Source of the DNA: an uncultured Mogibacterium sp.
GTDB taxonomy: Bacteria > Bacillota_A > Clostridia > Peptostreptococcales > Anaerovoracaceae
NCBI RefSeq assembly: GCF_938039775.1
Contig: NZ_CALHTQ010000129.1
Span: 1-11,042, forward strand
Direction: 5' to 3'
DNA: 11,042 bases
Numbering within the stretch: position 1 is the stretch's first letter; every line of letters begins with the position of its first letter. The position numbers and the translations under genes were made by a program. The notes under the pieces are model-generated. The model made no database searches, had not been told where the DNA came from, and saw only the letters and a list, made by a program, of their open reading frames with translations. Of the stretch, positions 505-11,042 are shown one piece after another.

Positions 505-1539
505 ATGAGAATACTAATCGATGGTATGGGCGGAGATCACGCTCCTCAGGAAATAGTAAAGGGTGCAATTCAGGCGGCAAGAGAGATAGACGATACAGTT
601 GTAATCATTGGCGCTGAACATTTAATAAAAGAAGAACTGAATACTCAGAAATGGGATGGAGTAAATATAGAAGTTGTGAACGCAACTGAAGTTATTACCA
701 ATAACGAATCTCCGGCAATGGCTGTTCGTAAGAAAAAGGATTCGACTATTAATCGTGGTATGAAGATGGTCAAAGAAGGCGAAGCAGATGTCTTCATCTC
801 CGGTGGAAGTACAGGTGCGCTTCTTGCAGCAGGGCTTCTTGGACTAGGACGTATCAAAGGAATAAAGAGACCTGCGATAGCAGCTTTTTTTCCACAGATA
901 GGAAAAGATGATACAACTCTTCTCTTAGACTGCGGGGCTAACGTGGACTGTAAGCCAGAATTTTTATACCAATTCGGTGTTATGGGAAGTATTTTCGTAC
1001 AGAACGTTAAAGACAAGGAAAGACCTAATGTTAGGCTTCTAAATGTCGGTGCGGAGGCTGAAAAAGGCGATGAACTTCATAAGGAAGCATATGAGCTACT
1101 AGCAAATAGTTCGATTAATTTCCAGGGCAATGTCGAAGGACGTGATGTTGTAGCCGGAATTTGTGATGTTGTTGTTACAGATGGATTCTCAGGAAATATC
1201 TTCCTTAAGAGCTCAGAGGGGCTTGCTCTATCAATTATGGGTAGACTTAAAGAAGTGCTGATGGGTGGAACTATATCCAAGATAGCAGCACTACTACTAG
1301 CAAAGCAGCTTAAAGGGATGAAAAAGGACTTCGATTACTCTGAGGAAGGTGGAGCTCCGATACTCGGACTTAAGGGACCTGTTCTTAAAATACATGGAAG
1401 TTCAAAGGCATATGCTGTTTATAATGCCATTCTCAAAGCTAGAGATTACGTTGAGTCAGATGTAACTGGCAAGATTGAAAAGGCAATTGCTGAAAGCGAT
1501 GAGATTGGTAGCGATGAATTAGTTAAACCAGAAGTTTAA
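505..1539 (+). CDS. plsX: Phosphate acyltransferase PlsX
   Basis: PlsX converts acyl-ACP and inorganic phosphate into acyl-phosphate, the acyl donor used by PlsY in the first step of phospholipid synthesis; it is a peripheral membrane enzyme. The 344-residue product has the family's usual length. Motifs in order are DGMGGDHAP (6-14), SGGSTGA (99-105), LLDCGAN (140-146), NVGAEAEKG (180-188), VVTDGFSGN (223-231) and GGAPILGLKGPVLKIHGSS (282-300). It is the first gene after the extended -10 promoter and heads the operon. In many Firmicutes acpP, for the acyl carrier protein, lies between plsX and rnc; here that gene is absent and only 56 bases separate plsX from rnc. The partner enzyme PlsY is encoded about 6.5 kb downstream in the same apparent transcript. 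Confidence 0.97.
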   Translation: MRILIDGMGGDHAPQEIVKGAIQAAREIDDTVVIIGAEHLIKEELNTQKWDGVNIEVVNATEVITNNESPAMAVRKKKDSTINRGMKMVKEGEADVFISGGSTGALLAAGLLGLGRIKGIKRPAIAAFFPQIGKDDTTLLLDCGANVDCKPEFLYQFGVMGSIFVQNVKDKERPNVRLLNVGAEAEKGDELHKEAYELLANSSINFQGNVEGRDVVAGICDVVVTDGFSGNIFLKSSEGLALSIMGRLKEVLMGGTISKIAALLLAKQLKGMKKDFDYSEEGGAPILGLKGPVLKIHGSSKAYAVYNAILKARDYVESDVTGKIEKAIAESDEIGSDELVKPEV

Positions 1540-5881: not shown

Positions 5882-6778
5882 ATGGGACTTTTTAAGGATA
5901 AAAGCACATTCAGAAAATTCACGGAAAAGGTTACAAATGTAATCGTTGGTAATCCCAATATTGATGAGGAGTTTTACGAGGAACTCGAGGAGTCGCTTGT
6001 AATATCTGATATCGGTATTGAAACGACTGATAAAATAATGGATATGCTCAAAAAACGCATTAATGCGAAGTATCTTACCAAGCCGGAAGATATTAAGAAA
6101 GCGCTTGCAGATGTGATAGCCGAAATAGTTGACAAAGGTGAGAGAAACAAATTGTCGACTGATTATCCACTCGTTATTCTTATGATTGGTATTAATGGTG
6201 GTGGCAAGACTACATCTATCGGTAAGCTTGCAAACCTCTTCAAAGAACGTGGACAGAGTGTTCTTCTCGCAGCAGCTGACACATTTAGAGCAGCGGCTGC
6301 AGATCAGCTTGTAGAATGGGGAACACGTTCGGGTGTTCGAGTTATTCGACACGAAGAGGGAACTGACCCAGCTGCAGTTATCTATGATGCTGTACAGTCG
6401 GCAAAGGCAAATAATATCGATGTTTTAATCTGTGACACTGCCGGTAGACTACAGAACAAAACTAACCTAATGAAGGAGCTGGAGAAAATGGACAAGATTA
6501 TTAGCCGTGAGTATCCCGAGGCTTCGAGAGAGACTTTAATTGTTCTAGATTCTACAACTGGCAAGAATGCAATAAGCCAGGCAAAAGAGTTTTCGGAAAT
6601 TGCTAATATTACTGGTATTGTACTCACTAAGCTTGATGGAACGGCGAGAGGTGGAATTTCAATTACAGTAACAGATGAATACGATCTTCCGATCAAACTT
6701 ATCGGCGTTGGTGAAGGAATACACGACCTAAAGGAGTTTGAACCACAGGAATTTGCAGGAGGTATTTTCGATGAGTAA
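5882..6778 (+). CDS. ftsY: Signal recognition particle receptor FtsY
   Basis: FtsY is the membrane-associated GTPase that docks the SRP-ribosome complex and hands nascent membrane proteins to SecYEG. The 298-residue protein is the compact form without a long acidic A domain. It has a short basic amphipathic N-terminus (MGLFKDKSTFRKFTEKV), which in related proteins contributes to membrane binding, a helical N domain (to about 85), and a GTPase G domain. The GTPase motifs are G1 GINGGGKT (103-110), DTFRAAA (133-139), G3 DTAGR (185-189), G4 TKLD (249-252) and GVGE (275-278). The start at 5882 has AAAGGA five bases upstream. The end overlaps der by eight bases. In many Firmicutes ylxM and ffh follow ftsY; here der follows instead. 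Ffh itself is excluded because there is no C-terminal methionine-rich M domain. Confidence 0.96.
   Translation: MGLFKDKSTFRKFTEKVTNVIVGNPNIDEEFYEELEESLVISDIGIETTDKIMDMLKKRINAKYLTKPEDIKKALADVIAEIVDKGERNKLSTDYPLVILMIGINGGGKTTSIGKLANLFKERGQSVLLAAADTFRAAAADQLVEWGTRSGVRVIRHEEGTDPAAVIYDAVQSAKANNIDVLICDTAGRLQNKTNLMKELEKMDKIISREYPEASRETLIVLDSTTGKNAISQAKEFSEIANITGIVLTKLDGTARGGISITVTDEYDLPIKLIGVGEGIHDLKEFEPQEFAGGIFDE
6757..6762 (+). promoter_or_regulatory. der Shine-Dalgarno
   Basis: A perfect AGGAGG inside the ftsY 3' end lies eight bases before ATG 6771. It selects that ATG over an upstream TTG at 6738 that would add eleven non-family residues. Confidence 0.88.
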
Positions 6779-8090
6779 ACCTATACTCGCAGTTGTAGGT
6801 AGACCCAACGTGGGAAAATCTACATTCTTTAACAGAATAATAGGGGAGAGAAAAGCCATCGTTCAAGATACTCCTGGCGTTACACGAGATAGAATTTATG
6901 CTGAGACGGAGTGGAATGGTAGGGAATTTGCCATAATTGATACTGGTGGTATTGAGGCCAATACTAGCGATGTAATCCTTTCTCAGATGAGAGAACAGGC
7001 AGTCACAGCGATGGAGCTAGCCGATGTTATTGTATTTATGGTTGATGGCAAAGAAGGTCTTACATCTGCCGATCATGACGTTGCTAATATCCTTAGAAGA
7101 ACAGGTAAGGAAATCATCCTAGTAGTCAACAAGGTCGATAATCCAAATAAGTACGGTGACAATATCTATGATTTTTATGAACTGGGACTCGGAGAACCGA
7201 TTGCAATCAGCTCAGTCAATATGCTTAACATAGGTGATTTACTAGATGCAATCGTTGCTGGTTTTCCAGATGAGATTTACGGGTACGAAGAATCTACTAA
7301 AATTGCTATCATAGGAAAGCCAAACGTAGGAAAATCTTCACTTGTAAATGCACTTACCAACGAGAAGCGAGTAATCGTTTCTCCGATTGCCGGAACTACT
7401 CGTGATTCAATCGATACACCATTTACTTACAATAATCGTGAGTATACTCTAATCGATACAGCAGGACTAAGACGTAAGAGCAAGGTTAACGATTCAATTG
7501 AGCACTTCAGTGTAATTAGAGCCGTTACATCCGTTGAAAGATGCGATATATGTATCATGATGATCGATGCGGTAGAAGGGTTGACTGAGCAGGATAAGAA
7601 GATTCTCGGCATCGCGCATGAAGCGGGTAAAGGTCTGATGATTGTAGTTAACAAGTGGGATCTAGTCGCAAAAGAGACTAACACTATGAGAGATTACGAG
7701 AGAACTTTGAGGGCCGACCTTCAGTTCGTATCGTATGCTCCAATCATTTTCGCATCGGTTCTCGAAAAGAAGAGAATATTTGACATTATCGATAAGGCTG
7801 CGAAAATCGAAGATATCAGGTCTAGAAGAATAACTACGGGAAAGCTCAATAGTGTTATCGAAGATGCTGTGATGATGAGGCAGCCACCATCAGACAAGGG
7901 TAAGCGTCTCAAGATTTATTATGCTAGCCAGATAGGCTCAAGACCACCGCTATTTTCATTCAATATTAACTCACGTGAACTCATGCATTTCTCATATTCA
8001 AGATATCTTGAGAACAAGCTACGTGAAGCATATGATTTTGAAGGAACACCTATCAAATTCTTATTTAATGAGAAAAAGGGAGATCAATAA
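6771..8090 (+). CDS. der: Ribosome assembly GTPase Der (EngA)
   Basis: Der is an essential GTPase with two tandem GTPase domains that helps mature the 50S subunit. The 439-residue length is typical. Domain 1 has GRPNVGKS (10-17), DTGG (57-60) and NKVD (120-123). Domain 2 has GKPNVGKS (182-189), DTAG (229-232) and NKWD (294-297). A KH-like RNA-binding domain follows (about 350-439), with KRLKIYYASQIGSRPP (378-393). Both G5 loops differ from the usual SA motif: ISSVNMLNI (146-154) and FASVLEKKRI (328-337), where many Der proteins have ISAxxGxGI and FISALTGQRV. The ATG overlaps the ftsY stop by eight bases and the TAA abuts the next ATG with no gap, so translational coupling on both sides is likely. 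The der-plsY-gpsA order is common in Clostridia. Confidence 0.97.
   Translation: MSKPILAVVGRPNVGKSTFFNRIIGERKAIVQDTPGVTRDRIYAETEWNGREFAIIDTGGIEANTSDVILSQMREQAVTAMELADVIVFMVDGKEGLTSADHDVANILRRTGKEIILVVNKVDNPNKYGDNIYDFYELGLGEPIAISSVNMLNIGDLLDAIVAGFPDEIYGYEESTKIAIIGKPNVGKSSLVNALTNEKRVIVSPIAGTTRDSIDTPFTYNNREYTLIDTAGLRRKSKVNDSIEHFSVIRAVTSVERCDICIMMIDAVEGLTEQDKKILGIAHEAGKGLMIVVNKWDLVAKETNTMRDYERTLRADLQFVSYAPIIFASVLEKKRIFDIIDKAAKIEDIRSRRITTGKLNSVIEDAVMMRQPPSDKGKRLKIYYASQIGSRPPLFSFNINSRELMHFSYSRYLENKLREAYDFEGTPIKFLFNEKKGDQ
8078..8082 (+). promoter_or_regulatory. Shine-Dalgarno of the plsY-gpsA gene
   Basis: GGGAG within the last codons of der lies eight bases before ATG 8091. It is the only good ribosome binding site for this 643-codon frame; no comparable site precedes a methionine codon in the linker or at the GpsA boundary. 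Confidence 0.78.
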
Positions 8091-10022
8091 ATGAAATATT
8101 TACCGCTTACCATCATGGTGATTGCTGCATACTTCATAGGAAATATCTCGCCAGCGACATTAATAGCCCGTGTTTACGGAATAGATATTAAGAAAGCTGG
8201 AAGTGGAAATGCAGGAACTACTAACGTTCTTAGAGTTTTAGGAACTAAGGCGGCAATTTGCACGCTACTGATAGATGTATTTAAGGGATTCATTGCTGTT
8301 TCGATAGCACAGGGCAATTTTAATAATCTTGGTGCAATGCTAGCATTTGCAGCCGTAGTTATAGGACATATTTATCCAATTGTGTTTAAATTTAAGGGTG
8401 GAAAGGGTGTTGCGACATTCATTGGTGCTGCTATGGCTTTAAACTGGCCGAGCATGTTCGCTGCAGCTTTGATTGCAATTGTTGTTGCTGCTATATCAAA
8501 GAAGATGTCCCTAGGGTCCATACTTGCAGCAATGATGTATCCACTATTGATGCTTTATTACTATCCGAAAGCTATACCTATTGCTATGTTCATGACTTTA
8601 GTAATTATCTTTACTCACCGTGGTAACATCAAGAGATTGATTAGGGGCGAGGAAAAAGAACTAAGCATAGGTTCTAAAATCAAGACGAAACTTAGAGAGC
8701 AGTCAGAAGAAACAGATAATTCTGAAAAAATAGATGATATCAAAGATCCTGCTGCATCTGAAAAGGTAGGGGGTAGTAGTAAAACCACTGAGTCACCTGC
8801 TACTTACAACGATTCAAAGTCCATGGAAACTTCAGATGAGTCAATAGCAAGAGTAGAATCTAAAGATGACGATTCTAATGAAGAATCTAAAGATGACATT
8901 ATGATAGCTGGCAAGAAGAATGAGCTTGTTAACGAAGCAACGGCAGTAGAACATAATATGATAGAAGTGGCAGATGAACCTATTGACTATTACAAAGATG
9001 TTGAGATGCCTAAACTCAAAACCGATGAGAAGAGAGTCGTATCTGTAATCGGTAACGGTAGCTTTGGTACTGCTATTGCAAATGTCATAGCACACAATGG
9101 ACACCGTGTAACGATATACGGACGTAATAAGGAAGATATAAACAAGACTCGCGAAAGTAGAGTTAACGAGAAATATTTACCTGGTGCTATCCTTCATGAG
9201 AAGCTTAGATTCACATCCAATGTAAGAACGGCGGTTGGCAAGAGAGATATCATAATCTTTGCTATCCCTGCACAGCAGTTTGGAAGTTTCTTAGAGAAGA
9301 ATGCGAAGTATATCGATAAAAACGCTATCATAGTTAACCTTGCGAAAGGAATTGAGAATAAATCTCTAAAGACTATGTCTCAAATTGCAAAGAAATTGCT
9401 TAAGAACAAGTATGTAGCTGTTTCTGGACCATCACATGCTGAAGAGATTGTTCGTAATTATCCGACGACAGTAGTTGCGGCGTCTAATGATGACAATGCT
9501 GCAAAAGAAATTCAAAATATTATGATGAGCAAGACGTTTAGGGTTTATACCACGAACGACATTATTGGAGTAGAGCTCGGTGGTGCACTCAAGAATGTAA
9601 TTGCTCTCGGAACAGGTATAACTGATGGTATGAATTTTGGTGATAATTCTAAAGCAGCATTAATGACAAGGGGAATTCATGAGATAGCAAGACTCGGAGA
9701 GACTATGGGTGCAAAGAGCGAGACTTTTGCAGGTCTTTCGGGAATTGGTGACCTTATGGTTACATGCTCATCTGATTTATCTAGAAATAGAAGATGTGGT
9801 CTTCTAATCGGAGGCGGTATGACGCCAGAAGAGGCTATTGCTGAAATTAAGACCACAGTTGAAGGATTTTACACAGTTGAAGCAGCGAGCAAGCTTGCTA
9901 AAAAGTTGAAGGTTGACATGCCAATTACTAATGCCATCAAAGCTGTAATTGATGGCAAACTCAATCCTCGAGATGCCGTTGAAATGCTAATGAATAGAGA
10001 TAGAAAACAAGAGAACAAGTAA
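8091..10022 (+). CDS. PlsY-GpsA fusion: acyl-phosphate:glycerol-3-phosphate acyltransferase joined to glycerol-3-phosphate dehydrogenase
   Basis: One uninterrupted 643-residue frame encodes two enzymes normally made from separate neighbouring genes. Residues 1-190 are PlsY, an integral membrane enzyme that acylates glycerol-3-phosphate with acyl-phosphate to form lysophosphatidate. Hydrophobic segments lie near 3-28, 53-73, 79-97, 107-136 and 141-175. The three active-site motifs are intact: GSGNAGTTNVLR (37-48), HIYPIVFKFKGGKGVAT (93-109) and HRGNIKRL (176-183). Residues about 315-638 are GpsA, which reduces dihydroxyacetone phosphate to glycerol-3-phosphate with NAD(P)H. It has the nucleotide-binding GNGSFGTAIA (321-330), LAKGIE (417-422), SGPSHAEEI (445-453), GVELGGALKNV (493-503) with the expected catalytic Lys501, and GLSGIGDLMVTC (548-559) followed by SRNRRCG (564-570). 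An acidic linker separates them. Published PlsY topologies put the C-terminus in the cytoplasm, where GpsA would need to be. Both halves look functional, and PlsX, which makes the acyl donor, is in the same apparent operon. The frame ends in tandem stops TAA TAG. Confidence 0.93.
   Translation: MKYLPLTIMVIAAYFIGNISPATLIARVYGIDIKKAGSGNAGTTNVLRVLGTKAAICTLLIDVFKGFIAVSIAQGNFNNLGAMLAFAAVVIGHIYPIVFKFKGGKGVATFIGAAMALNWPSMFAAALIAIVVAAISKKMSLGSILAAMMYPLLMLYYYPKAIPIAMFMTLVIIFTHRGNIKRLIRGEEKELSIGSKIKTKLREQSEETDNSEKIDDIKDPAASEKVGGSSKTTESPATYNDSKSMETSDESIARVESKDDDSNEESKDDIMIAGKKNELVNEATAVEHNMIEVADEPIDYYKDVEMPKLKTDEKRVVSVIGNGSFGTAIANVIAHNGHRVTIYGRNKEDINKTRESRVNEKYLPGAILHEKLRFTSNVRTAVGKRDIIIFAIPAQQFGSFLEKNAKYIDKNAIIVNLAKGIENKSLKTMSQIAKKLLKNKYVAVSGPSHAEEIVRNYPTTVVAASNDDNAAKEIQNIMMSKTFRVYTTNDIIGVELGGALKNVIALGTGITDGMNFGDNSKAALMTRGIHEIARLGETMGAKSETFAGLSGIGDLMVTCSSDLSRNRRCGLLIGGGMTPEEAIAEIKTTVEGFYTVEAASKLAKKLKVDMPITNAIKAVIDGKLNPRDAVEMLMNRDRKQENK
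8658..9029 (+). other. Acidic low-complexity linker between the PlsY and GpsA domains
   Basis: Residues about 190-313 of the fusion match neither PlsY nor GpsA by eye. From residue 203 to 314, 33 of 112 residues are Asp or Glu, and Ser, Thr, Lys and Asn are also abundant. There is no hydrophobic segment long enough to cross the membrane. It is therefore probably a flexible cytoplasmic tether. The frame stays open and in register with both flanking domains. Confidence 0.8.
8855..8897 (+). repeat. In-frame 16-bp direct repeat inside the linker
   Basis: AGAATCTAAAGATGAC occurs exactly at 8855-8870 and 8882-8897. The 27-base period equals nine codons, and the repeat encodes ESKDD twice (residues 256-260 and 265-269). 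This looks like a recent local duplication that lengthened the linker without breaking the frame. Confidence 0.85.
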
Positions 10023-10025
10023 TAG

Positions 10026-11042
10026 ATGAAGAAATACCACATTATAACTTTCGGTTGCCAGATGAATGAGCACGATTCCGAAAATATTGCGGGAATGCTC
10101 GAGGGTATGGGATACGAATTTTCAGAAGAGCCATATAAGGCTGACGTAGTAGTCCTTAATACGTGTAGTGTTCGCGAGCACGCTGATAAGAGATTTTATG
10201 GGATGCTCGGACAGTTTAAGAAAAGGTGTGACGAGAATAAAGATACTAGAATCGTGTGTGTTTGCGGCTGTATGCCGCAGCAGCCGCGCGTTCAGGAAGA
10301 GATTAAGAAGAGCTTTGCATGGGTAGATGTAGTTTTTGGAACTCAGACGATTGGAGATTTTCCAAGACTGCTTAATGACAGAATATCCACTGGAAAGAAG
10401 CAGTTTTCAATCACTGCAAACAATACTAAAGTTCCTGATGAAAAGGAATCCAAGCGACTGCATAAGCACAAGGCTCTCGTAAATATTACATATGGATGTA
10501 ATAACTTTTGCACCTACTGTATTGTTCCATATACTCGCGGAAGGGAGAAAAGTCGTTCTCTTGATGATGTGGTAAATGAGGTAAAAAAACTTGCTTCAGA
10601 TGGTGTAATTGAGATTATGTTACTCGGACAGAACGTAAATTCGTTTATAGACAACAAAGGTAATACTTTTCCGACTCTCGTAAAGGAAATTAATAAGATT
10701 GACGGACTTGAGCGAATTAGATTTATGACATCAAATCCTAAGGATCTTTCAGACGAGTTAATCAATTGCTACAAGACATGCGAGAAGCTTTGTAATCACA
10801 TTCATTTACCAGTGCAGTCTGGCAGCAGCTCTGTGCTAAAACGCATGAACCGCAGGTACGATAGAGATAAGTACATCGATATTATTGACAAACTGAAAGC
10901 TGCATGTCCAGATATTGCAATTACTACAGATATTATCGTAGGCTTTCCAGGTGAGACAGAAGAGGAGTTTAAAGATACACTTTCTTTAGTCGAGTACGTG
11001 GAATATGATTCGGCATTTACTTTTATATATTCACCAAGGGAA
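10026..11042 (+). CDS. miaB: tRNA-2-methylthio-N6-dimethylallyladenosine synthase MiaB, N-terminal part
   Basis: MiaB is a radical-SAM methylthiotransferase that adds a methylthio group to i6A37 of tRNAs reading UNN codons, steadying codon-anticodon pairing. The first 339 residues are present and the frame is open at the window end, so the C-terminal TRAM domain and the stop are missing. The N-terminal iron-sulfur domain has FGCQMNEHDSE (Cys11), NTCSVRE (Cys47) and CGCMPQQ (Cys82). The radical-SAM cluster is YGCNNFCTYCIVPYTRGRE (Cys158, Cys162, Cys165). LGQNVNSF (200-207), MTSNPKDLSDELI (234-246), HLPVQSGSSSVL (260-271) and FTFIYSPRE (331-339) are typical of MiaB rather than of RimO or MtaB. 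There is no clear Shine-Dalgarno; the ATG lies three bases after the plsY-gpsA stop and directly after a TAG in the same frame, so coupling to upstream translation is likely. Confidence 0.95.
   Translation, partial: MKKYHIITFGCQMNEHDSENIAGMLEGMGYEFSEEPYKADVVVLNTCSVREHADKRFYGMLGQFKKRCDENKDTRIVCVCGCMPQQPRVQEEIKKSFAWVDVVFGTQTIGDFPRLLNDRISTGKKQFSITANNTKVPDEKESKRLHKHKALVNITYGCNNFCTYCIVPYTRGREKSRSLDDVVNEVKKLASDGVIEIMLLGQNVNSFIDNKGNTFPTLVKEINKIDGLERIRFMTSNPKDLSDELINCYKTCEKLCNHIHLPVQSGSSSVLKRMNRRYDRDKYIDIIDKLKAACPDIAITTDIIVGFPGETEEEFKDTLSLVEYVEYDSAFTFIYSPRE

Follow-up and report, generated by a model that had tools for sequence, protein, structure and literature searches.

Why should the gene of a membrane acyltransferase run on, without a stop, into the gene of the enzyme which makes its substrate? 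The question is raised by an 11,042-nucleotide stretch of DNA from an uncultured Mogibacterium sp. (contig NZ_CALHTQ010000129.1; the whole stretch is called the window below), in which plsY and gpsA are fused at 8091..10022. This feature, like every other feature of the window given here, is on the plus strand. The frame begins with ATG, holds 643 uninterrupted codons and ends with TAA. We consider it very probable, from the sequence and its relatives, that this gene encodes one bifunctional, membrane-tethered enzyme which makes glycerol-3-phosphate beside PlsY.

The single-chain frame proposed in the initial annotation, which was made from the letters of the sequence, is confirmed by the open reading frame and by the searches with family models. 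PF02660 is found at residues 13-183 of the fused protein (165.3 bits, cut-off 24.1), PF01210 at residues 317-470 (160.2 bits, cut-off 23.1) and PF07479 at residues 490-631 (187.1 bits, cut-off 25). The NCBIfam cut-offs are passed for PlsY (TIGR00023, 157.0 bits, cut-off 137.2) and for a GpsA subfamily (NF000942, 416.4 bits, cut-off 257), and several narrower GpsA equivalogs of NCBIfam remain below theirs, for example NF000941 with 394.8 against 423. The PlsY part, a membrane acyl-phosphate:glycerol-3-phosphate acyltransferase, takes up codons 1-190 (8091..8660). It is followed by an acidic, serine/threonine-rich linker of codons 191-296 (8661..8978), which is recognized by its composition, its model confidence and its substitution pattern. 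Then come a clade-specific segment preceding GpsA, PIDYYKDVEMPKLKTDEK, which contains the motif DYY (codons 297-314, 8979..9032), the NAD-binding (Rossmann) N-terminal domain of GpsA (9039..9500) and its C-terminal domain (9558..9983).

The active-site motifs had also been called intact in both halves, and they are. All 16 GpsA positions which we chose, including the three glycines of the NAD motif, the Lys of KGIE, GPSxxxE, a second Lys, the GD of GxGD and SRNRR, are present in the window, and they are invariant or nearly so across 65 aligned fused proteins; we take their roles to be those usually assigned to them (NAD-binding glycines, catalytic Lys and so on). For the PlsY half the comparison can be made with the enzyme from Aquifex (aaPlsY), in which the substrates are bound by Ser35, Thr41, Arg45, His92, Lys104, Ser142, His177 and Asn180 (PMC5700162; this and the other papers cited here are drawn on in excerpt). 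When the window PlsY is aligned to the aaPlsY chain, the residues binding glycerol-3-phosphate and acyl-phosphate are kept in eight of eight cases: S38, T44, R48, H93, K105, S143, H176 and N179. In the same excerpt His177 and Asn180 are near the C-terminus and the active site is towards the cytoplasmic side, which bears out the earlier expectation that a GpsA attached there would face the correct compartment; it is for the active site, rather than for the C-terminus as such, that the excerpt gives a side.

The AlphaFold2 model of the fused protein has a mean predicted local distance difference test score (pLDDT) of 80.8 and a predicted template modelling score (pTM) of 0.56. With Foldseek the GpsA half matches Coxiella GpsA (3k96) with a template modelling score (TM-score) of 0.97 to the target and the PlsY half matches Aquifex PlsY (5xj5) with a TM-score of 0.88 to the target; by the latter match the PlsY half is predicted to have the seven-helix membrane fold. 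Residues 192-288 have a pLDDT below 50, so the linker is predicted to be disordered and a fixed mutual orientation of the domains is unsupported. The ratio of nonsynonymous to synonymous substitution rates (omega) was determined pairwise by the method of Nei and Gojobori (NG86) between the window and M. pumilum, L003 and L004. Against M. pumilum omega is 0.040 for PlsY, 0.024 for GpsA and 0.213 for the linker (three gapped codons), and against L003 the values are 0.040, 0.029 and 0.205 (13 gapped codons); against L004 the synonymous divergence (dS) is saturated in linker and GpsA. The values of 0.02-0.04 indicate that the PlsY and GpsA halves are both under strong purifying selection. A decay of the window's GpsA half was considered and is ruled out by the omega of 0.024.

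The fusion is found in other genomes as well. M. pumilum is the closest named relative in the data compared (the NCBI taxonomy places Mogibacterium in the Anaerovoracaceae), and its strain ATCC 700696 has the fusion with the same frame and order at 91% identity to the window; a whole-query search of this genome (one contig, 1.86 Mb) at E 1e-3 yields a single match. A protein search, which bears on the suggested check for both domains in one chain, gave 641 matches under the threshold, and among the best 120 of these 641 there are 119 with both domains and one, P0027, with GpsA only; a chance join is excluded by this recurrence. In this protein set the frame stays open down to 44% identity, though the linker tolerates many indels. 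The source names among the matches listed are mostly PlsY or glycerol-3-phosphate acyltransferase; P0030 is named a dehydrogenase.

A sample of 296 genomes of the family contained 279 with a match, and 145 genomes were inspected at the locus. These are the best-scoring listed rows and so biased to near relatives; not counted are three rows whose upstream sequence was too short, one row from a genome already represented and six second copies of loci already in the set. The fused state was called by a stop-to-stop frame test, since the frame lengths reported by the genome search exceed 500 even at loci with a real stop between the two genes. By this test the 145 divide into 14 fusions, 129 loci where the two genes are separate neighbours on one strand, and 2 with GpsA only. 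In a sample of the class (341 genomes, 318 with a match) an end-to-end match was, among the matches listed, found solely in M. pumilum. The 58 class-sample loci tested, which include all listed rows for which a frame of at least 392 was reported, except that of M. pumilum itself, comprise 56 with separate adjacent genes and 2 with GpsA only; none is fused and none has DYY before GpsA. In plasmid and in phage records alike no match reached 60% identity, and 80% of the query is covered, in two pieces, by three plasmid and three phage records. It may be added that in 17 of the 296 family-sample genomes (e.g. G004, G015, G025) this query matches neither a PlsY nor a GpsA at E 1e-3; they may be incomplete, have distant copies or use another route.

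The connection between the halves is variable in all but one short motif. In the window the 106 residues of the linker include 28 D/E, 14 K/R and 22 S/T, and its length ranges from 37 to 430 residues in the 104 of 120 fused proteins in which it is measurable. At the 145 loci inspected DYY is found before the start of the GpsA Rossmann domain in 14 of 14 fused genomes, in all five with a split gene and in none of the 126 others. It is exact in 108 of 120 fused proteins (the window and the 119 matches), variants such as DFY, DYF, NYY and DHY being present in 12, and it sits 21-22 residues upstream of the GpsA glycine motif in the 107 measurable proteins of the 108. The model has a pLDDT of 82 for residues 291-300 and of 90 for residues 301-310, and the segment runs on into GpsA. 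The omega of this segment (20 codons, hence very few sites) is 0.29 against M. pumilum, with a dS of only 0.22, and 0.13 against L003; since these values are above those of the domains, the segment as a whole seems less constrained and only the motif and its position strongly kept. The fused proteins P0034, P0039 (Baileyella intestinalis), P0052, P0061, L012 and L014 reach about 890-960 residues, and their linkers, up to 430 residues long, contain conserved-looking islands; P0039 and P0052, for example, have a basic stretch in which LRKFK and AVYYGMPMHPEYIP are found.

A single ribosome-binding site at the front of the gene had been proposed, and this agrees with what we find. The probable site is GGGAG at 8078..8082, within the end of der and 8 nucleotides before the ATG; it should be noted that rule-based Shine-Dalgarno scoring chose AAGG, 11 nucleotides before the ATG, instead. 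The rule used gives no Shine-Dalgarno match for any start codon lying in frame within the linker (ATG at codons 245, 271, 290 and 306, GTG at codon 293), and a Met at most 25 residues before an exact DYY is found in just 30 of the 108 fused proteins. Judged by these features the reading frame is maintained, and a conserved start within the gene from which GpsA alone could be made is not visible.

How often did the fusion arise? A FastTree of 165 rows, a set without seven loci having short or missing pieces (L014 among them), requires 2 state changes. In an IQ-TREE of 53 rows a clade with support 100/100 unites all 36 fused rows with five rows that have separate genes (L015-L018, L020), and a tree which restricts the clade to the fused rows alone is rejected by the approximately unbiased (AU) test with a p of 9.5e-45, its log-likelihood being lower by 119.8. 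Rooted with the outgroup the tree has one gain of fusion, and by this phylogeny a single event at the base of one clade gave rise to the fusion. The five separate-gene rows, nested in the fused clade, are best read as a later split, and the DYY trait, which was not used in the tree, agrees with this reading; that they are the ancestral state is ruled out by the AU test. The split GpsA proteins start near the motif (MKDYYAG, MDYYEG etc.), so the rest of the linker would have been lost and the motif retained. Related strains with two separate genes had been named beforehand as an observation that would speak against the fusion; there are five such relatives, but since the tree shows them to be later splits they do not refute it.

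The initial annotation also suggested that the fusion came from an adjacent plsY-gpsA pair by loss of the intervening stop. The adjacent pair as a starting point is well founded (129 of 145 loci), but the event was not a simple stop loss, the linker being 37-430 residues long and carrying the DYY motif. A simple stop-loss fusion does occur elsewhere: P0265, on one 5.1 kb contig, has 539 amino acids, nearly no linker and no DYY, and it falls among rows with separate genes, L140 being the nearest at 73%. P0266 and P0269 (600 and 611 amino acids, on contigs of 80 and 202 kb) are far from all other rows and have a linker of about 60 residues without DYY. These proteins combine the same two enzymes in the same order as the window gene, but they are outside its clade and differ from it in the linker and in the lack of DYY. 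From these groupings the PlsY-GpsA join seems to have arisen about three times, the case of P0265 resting on one short contig.

Within the clade the GpsA half has repeatedly lost its catalytic residues while remaining attached to PlsY. When the PlsY-plus-linker part was used as query, the matches included many proteins of 399-469 residues in which PF02660 and PF01210 are present but PF07479 is absent. The half-length remnants compared have an altered glycine motif and are without the catalytic Lys and the entire C-terminal domain, while their PlsY is intact; they are found in two separate lineages (P0125-P0215, L156, L157, L174). There is also a full-length dead form with a basic C-terminal end in which the catalytic positions are lost (G161, rows L171/L155, and P0242-P0244), and its frame is retained in relatives at 72-98% identity. 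In eight dead rows which we tabulated the PlsY residues are kept 8/8 throughout, while the GpsA part has lost the Lys of KGIE and the SRNRR positions and shows a changed glycine motif. A PlsY tree, from which P0221 and seven further long or off-clade rows were omitted and to which five dead-form rows were added, puts 11 dead rows in three groups inside the fused clade, each with starred support: (L156, L157, P0125, P0261, P0248), (L174, P0214, P0205) and (L171, P0242, P0244). The 11 rows need 3 changes, the starred branches by themselves force 3, and an earlier tree with fewer rows put the dead forms in the same three places. P0221 itself, once taken for a further dead form, has an out-of-frame-looking end and sits beside P0108 in the earlier tree, and is treated as a frameshift artefact.

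The remnants can be compared with the linkers beside them. In 63 P0127-type proteins, selected by sequence pattern, the remnant domain has a mean identity of 92.8% with a gap fraction of 0.001, against 81.2% and 0.262 for the linker, PlsY being at 98.6%. For P0242-P0244 the N-half is 76-82% identical without gaps, the C-half 64-75%, the linker 47-65% and the tail 45-54%. By these figures the GpsA remnants are more constrained than the linkers. The dead domains of L156 and L157 give an omega of about 0.19, a rough value from one pair with a dS of 2.35, near saturation. For P0127 a Rossmann fold is predicted with a pLDDT mostly of 81-93; the alignment behind this model included bifunctional relatives, so the model leans to the old fold. 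Among the 30 best loci, four genomes of the clade (G259, G296, G092, G214) have a PlsY without a GpsA remnant beside it. Long acidic tails without a fused GpsA are seen on PlsY in P0219, P0229 and L183, and those of P0219 and L183 end lysine-rich.

The state of the fused GpsA can be compared with the presence of other copies of the enzyme. A further GpsA, at 43-49% identity, is encoded in eight of the 14 bifunctional genomes; in the other six (G001, G061, G125, G077, G083, G132) no other GpsA of at least 40% identity was found; G061 has a single match in the genome search and G125 has beyond the fusion just partial matches of 25-27%. Another GpsA is present in four of the five split genomes (41-43% identity), and in 4/4 dead-domain genomes (G033, G109, G066, G161) as well as in 4/4 genomes with PlsY alone (42-49%). 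This pattern, from genomes which may be incomplete, fits a path in which the fusion was followed by the gain of a second GpsA and then by decay of the fused one.

We propose that the GpsA half hangs in the cytoplasm from the C-terminus of PlsY by the flexible acidic linker and would there reduce dihydroxyacetone phosphate to glycerol-3-phosphate, which the PlsY half would acylate with acyl-phosphate from PlsX to lysophosphatidate. The full-length chain presumably accumulates with both halves active, the membrane tethering being suggested by the anatomy of the protein, and the tether would hold the two enzymes at 1:1 and raise the glycerol-3-phosphate concentration near PlsY. True channelling is possible but unneeded; because the linker length is so variable, proximity is favoured over a rigid tunnel. 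The supply of glycerol-3-phosphate can limit acylation, as is shown by the S. aureus gpsA-null strain, which halts phospholipid synthesis upon glycerol withdrawal (PMC3840577), and by the E. coli plsX plsY double mutant, which is rescued by overexpression of GpsA, there necessarily without PlsY (PMC11633183).

Several observations weigh against this reading of the gene. At least three lineages have lost the catalytic residues of the fused GpsA, four clade genomes have no remnant and five relatives have split the gene, and these findings indicate that the join is dispensable where another GpsA exists. Even among the four genomes of the M. pumilum genus group the fusion is intact in three and dead in one (G161). 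All eight genomes searched for glycerol kinase, that of M. pumilum among them, have one above the TIGR01311 cut-off, and glycerol-3-phosphate could therefore also come from a source other than GpsA. In near relatives P0027 (373 amino acids, 94% identity, 1.4 Mb contig) is a GpsA-only gene call beginning at the residue which matches codon 271, and P0122-P0124 are PlsY-only calls (87-93% identity, short contigs); these may be splits, frameshifts, assembly errors or contig ends. The start of P0027, together with P0122, which diverges from the window after the GE of the PlsY end as from a frameshift, could also mean that the chain is made as two pieces, through initiation within the gene, cleavage of the linker by a protease or a shift of frame at the A5 run close to the end of PlsY. 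We find this improbable, because the internal starts are without Shine-Dalgarno matches, a nearby Met is present in just 30 of the 108 exact-DYY proteins and linkers of up to 430 residues remain open. To an artefact of sequencing or assembly, which the initial annotation feared might hide a stop or a frameshift in the linker, we give almost no credence, since the same fusion is present in the independent one-contig genome of M. pumilum, in 14 genomes and in all but one of the 120 best-scoring proteins listed.

It could also be that the fusion is neutral, co-expressed neighbours having been frozen together by a chance loss of the stop without kinetic benefit. The adjacent pair is the norm (129 of 145 family loci, 56 of 58 class loci), which makes fusion a small step, unrelated fusions have occurred (P0265; P0266/P0269), one lineage has split again and the linker length varies freely; but a frame which stays open down to 44% identity despite many linker indels, and the 6 of 14 bifunctional genomes without another GpsA found at 40% identity or above, make us regard neutrality as rather unlikely. 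A further idea, which is possible if on balance doubtful, is that the GpsA domain also has a non-catalytic role for PlsY, as scaffold, stabiliser, docking site for PlsX or free GpsA, or regulator. Such a role would explain why dead GpsA-derived domains stay on PlsY in several lineages, and it agrees with the distribution of these domains over three distinct, well-supported groups within the clade of fusions, with the full set of PlsY residues in the eight dead rows from which the GpsA catalytic positions are gone, with the better conservation and fewer gaps of the remnants than of the linker in the P0127-type proteins and P0242-P0244, and with the omega of about 0.19 and the predicted Rossmann fold. 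These last two have the weaknesses mentioned above, however; the domain is dispensable in G259, G296, G092 and G214, and a slow decay without function is compatible with the same data. A fuller form of the idea, which we hold to be slightly more doubtful still, says that the GpsA domain gained the non-catalytic role after the fusion and that lineages with a separate GpsA, which could then dispense with catalysis by the fused domain, retained this GpsA-derived pseudoenzyme as a lasting cytoplasmic component of their acyltransferase on three or more occasions.

The bifunctional reading can be set beside known systems. Compared with PlsY (Aquifex aeolicus 5xj5; TIGR00023/PF02660) the window protein is alike in modelled fold, in all substrate-binding residues and in having plsX in the same run of genes, and it adds about 450 C-terminal residues with a second enzyme. 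Compared with GpsA (NF000942; PF01210 and PF07479; 3k96, 1z82) it is alike in full length, active-site positions and fold (TM 0.97), but it is tethered to a membrane enzyme and carries the DYY segment in front, which none of the 126 other loci inspected has. One precedent is a pair of PlsY-DegV fusions (UniProt A0A0P6X7I7 and A0A0P6XUK7), for which a hand-over of substrate was proposed (PMC5700162); there too the partner is fused to the C-terminus of PlsY, but DegV serves the acyl-phosphate side whereas GpsA makes the other substrate. According to the excerpt of that paper a Pfam search for PlsX/PlsY or PlsY/PlsC fusions gave none, and the word GpsA is absent from the excerpted text. The bidomain glycerol-3-phosphate dehydrogenase (GPDH) of green algae (Dunaliella 6iuy; PMC7468427) is likewise fused to a neighbour in its pathway, but the algal partner is a phosphatase domain, the product is glycerol and the fusion is unrelated. 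Precomputed Pfam assignments include other PlsY fusions, one cluster each, in P0267, P0268 and P0270, with PF00702/PF12710, PF07336 and PF13664. The initial annotation knew of no characterised fusion of PlsY and GpsA; in the titles and abstract starts searched (subscription papers outside the scope) we found no account of one either, nor is there anything on it in the excerpts of PMC7203096, PMC12548448, PMC1950310, PMC3633358, PMC6431249 and PMC11633183.

The genes in the window, all in one direction, are in the order rlmN end, plsX, rnc, smc, ftsY, der, plsY-gpsA and miaB. Each of plsX, rnc, smc, ftsY, der and miaB is above an NCBIfam equivalog cut-off, and the partial rlmN piece is below. 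The plsX gene (505..1539; TIGR00182, 361.9 bits, cut-off 243.4) supplies the acyl-phosphate used by PlsY. Directly upstream of the fused gene is der, coding for the EngA GTPase (6771..8090; TIGR03594, 566.3 bits, cut-off 306.7), the start of which was picked by an AGGAGGT site and the stop of which adjoins the ATG of the fused gene. Directly downstream is miaB (10026..11042; TIGR01574, 418.5 bits, cut-off 355.3), which runs off the window.

GpsA and PlsY act one directly after the other at the beginning of membrane-lipid synthesis in bacteria, a pathway whose biochemical control points in Gram-positive bacteria are called little known (PMC3840577). The fusion is the glycerol-3-phosphate counterpart of PlsY-DegV, which was used to argue for a hand-over of acyl-phosphate. 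The clade is a natural experiment in which all states, fused and intact, split again, fused and dead, and lost, are found together, and a natural tether between producer and consumer would make control at the glycerol-3-phosphate step directly testable.

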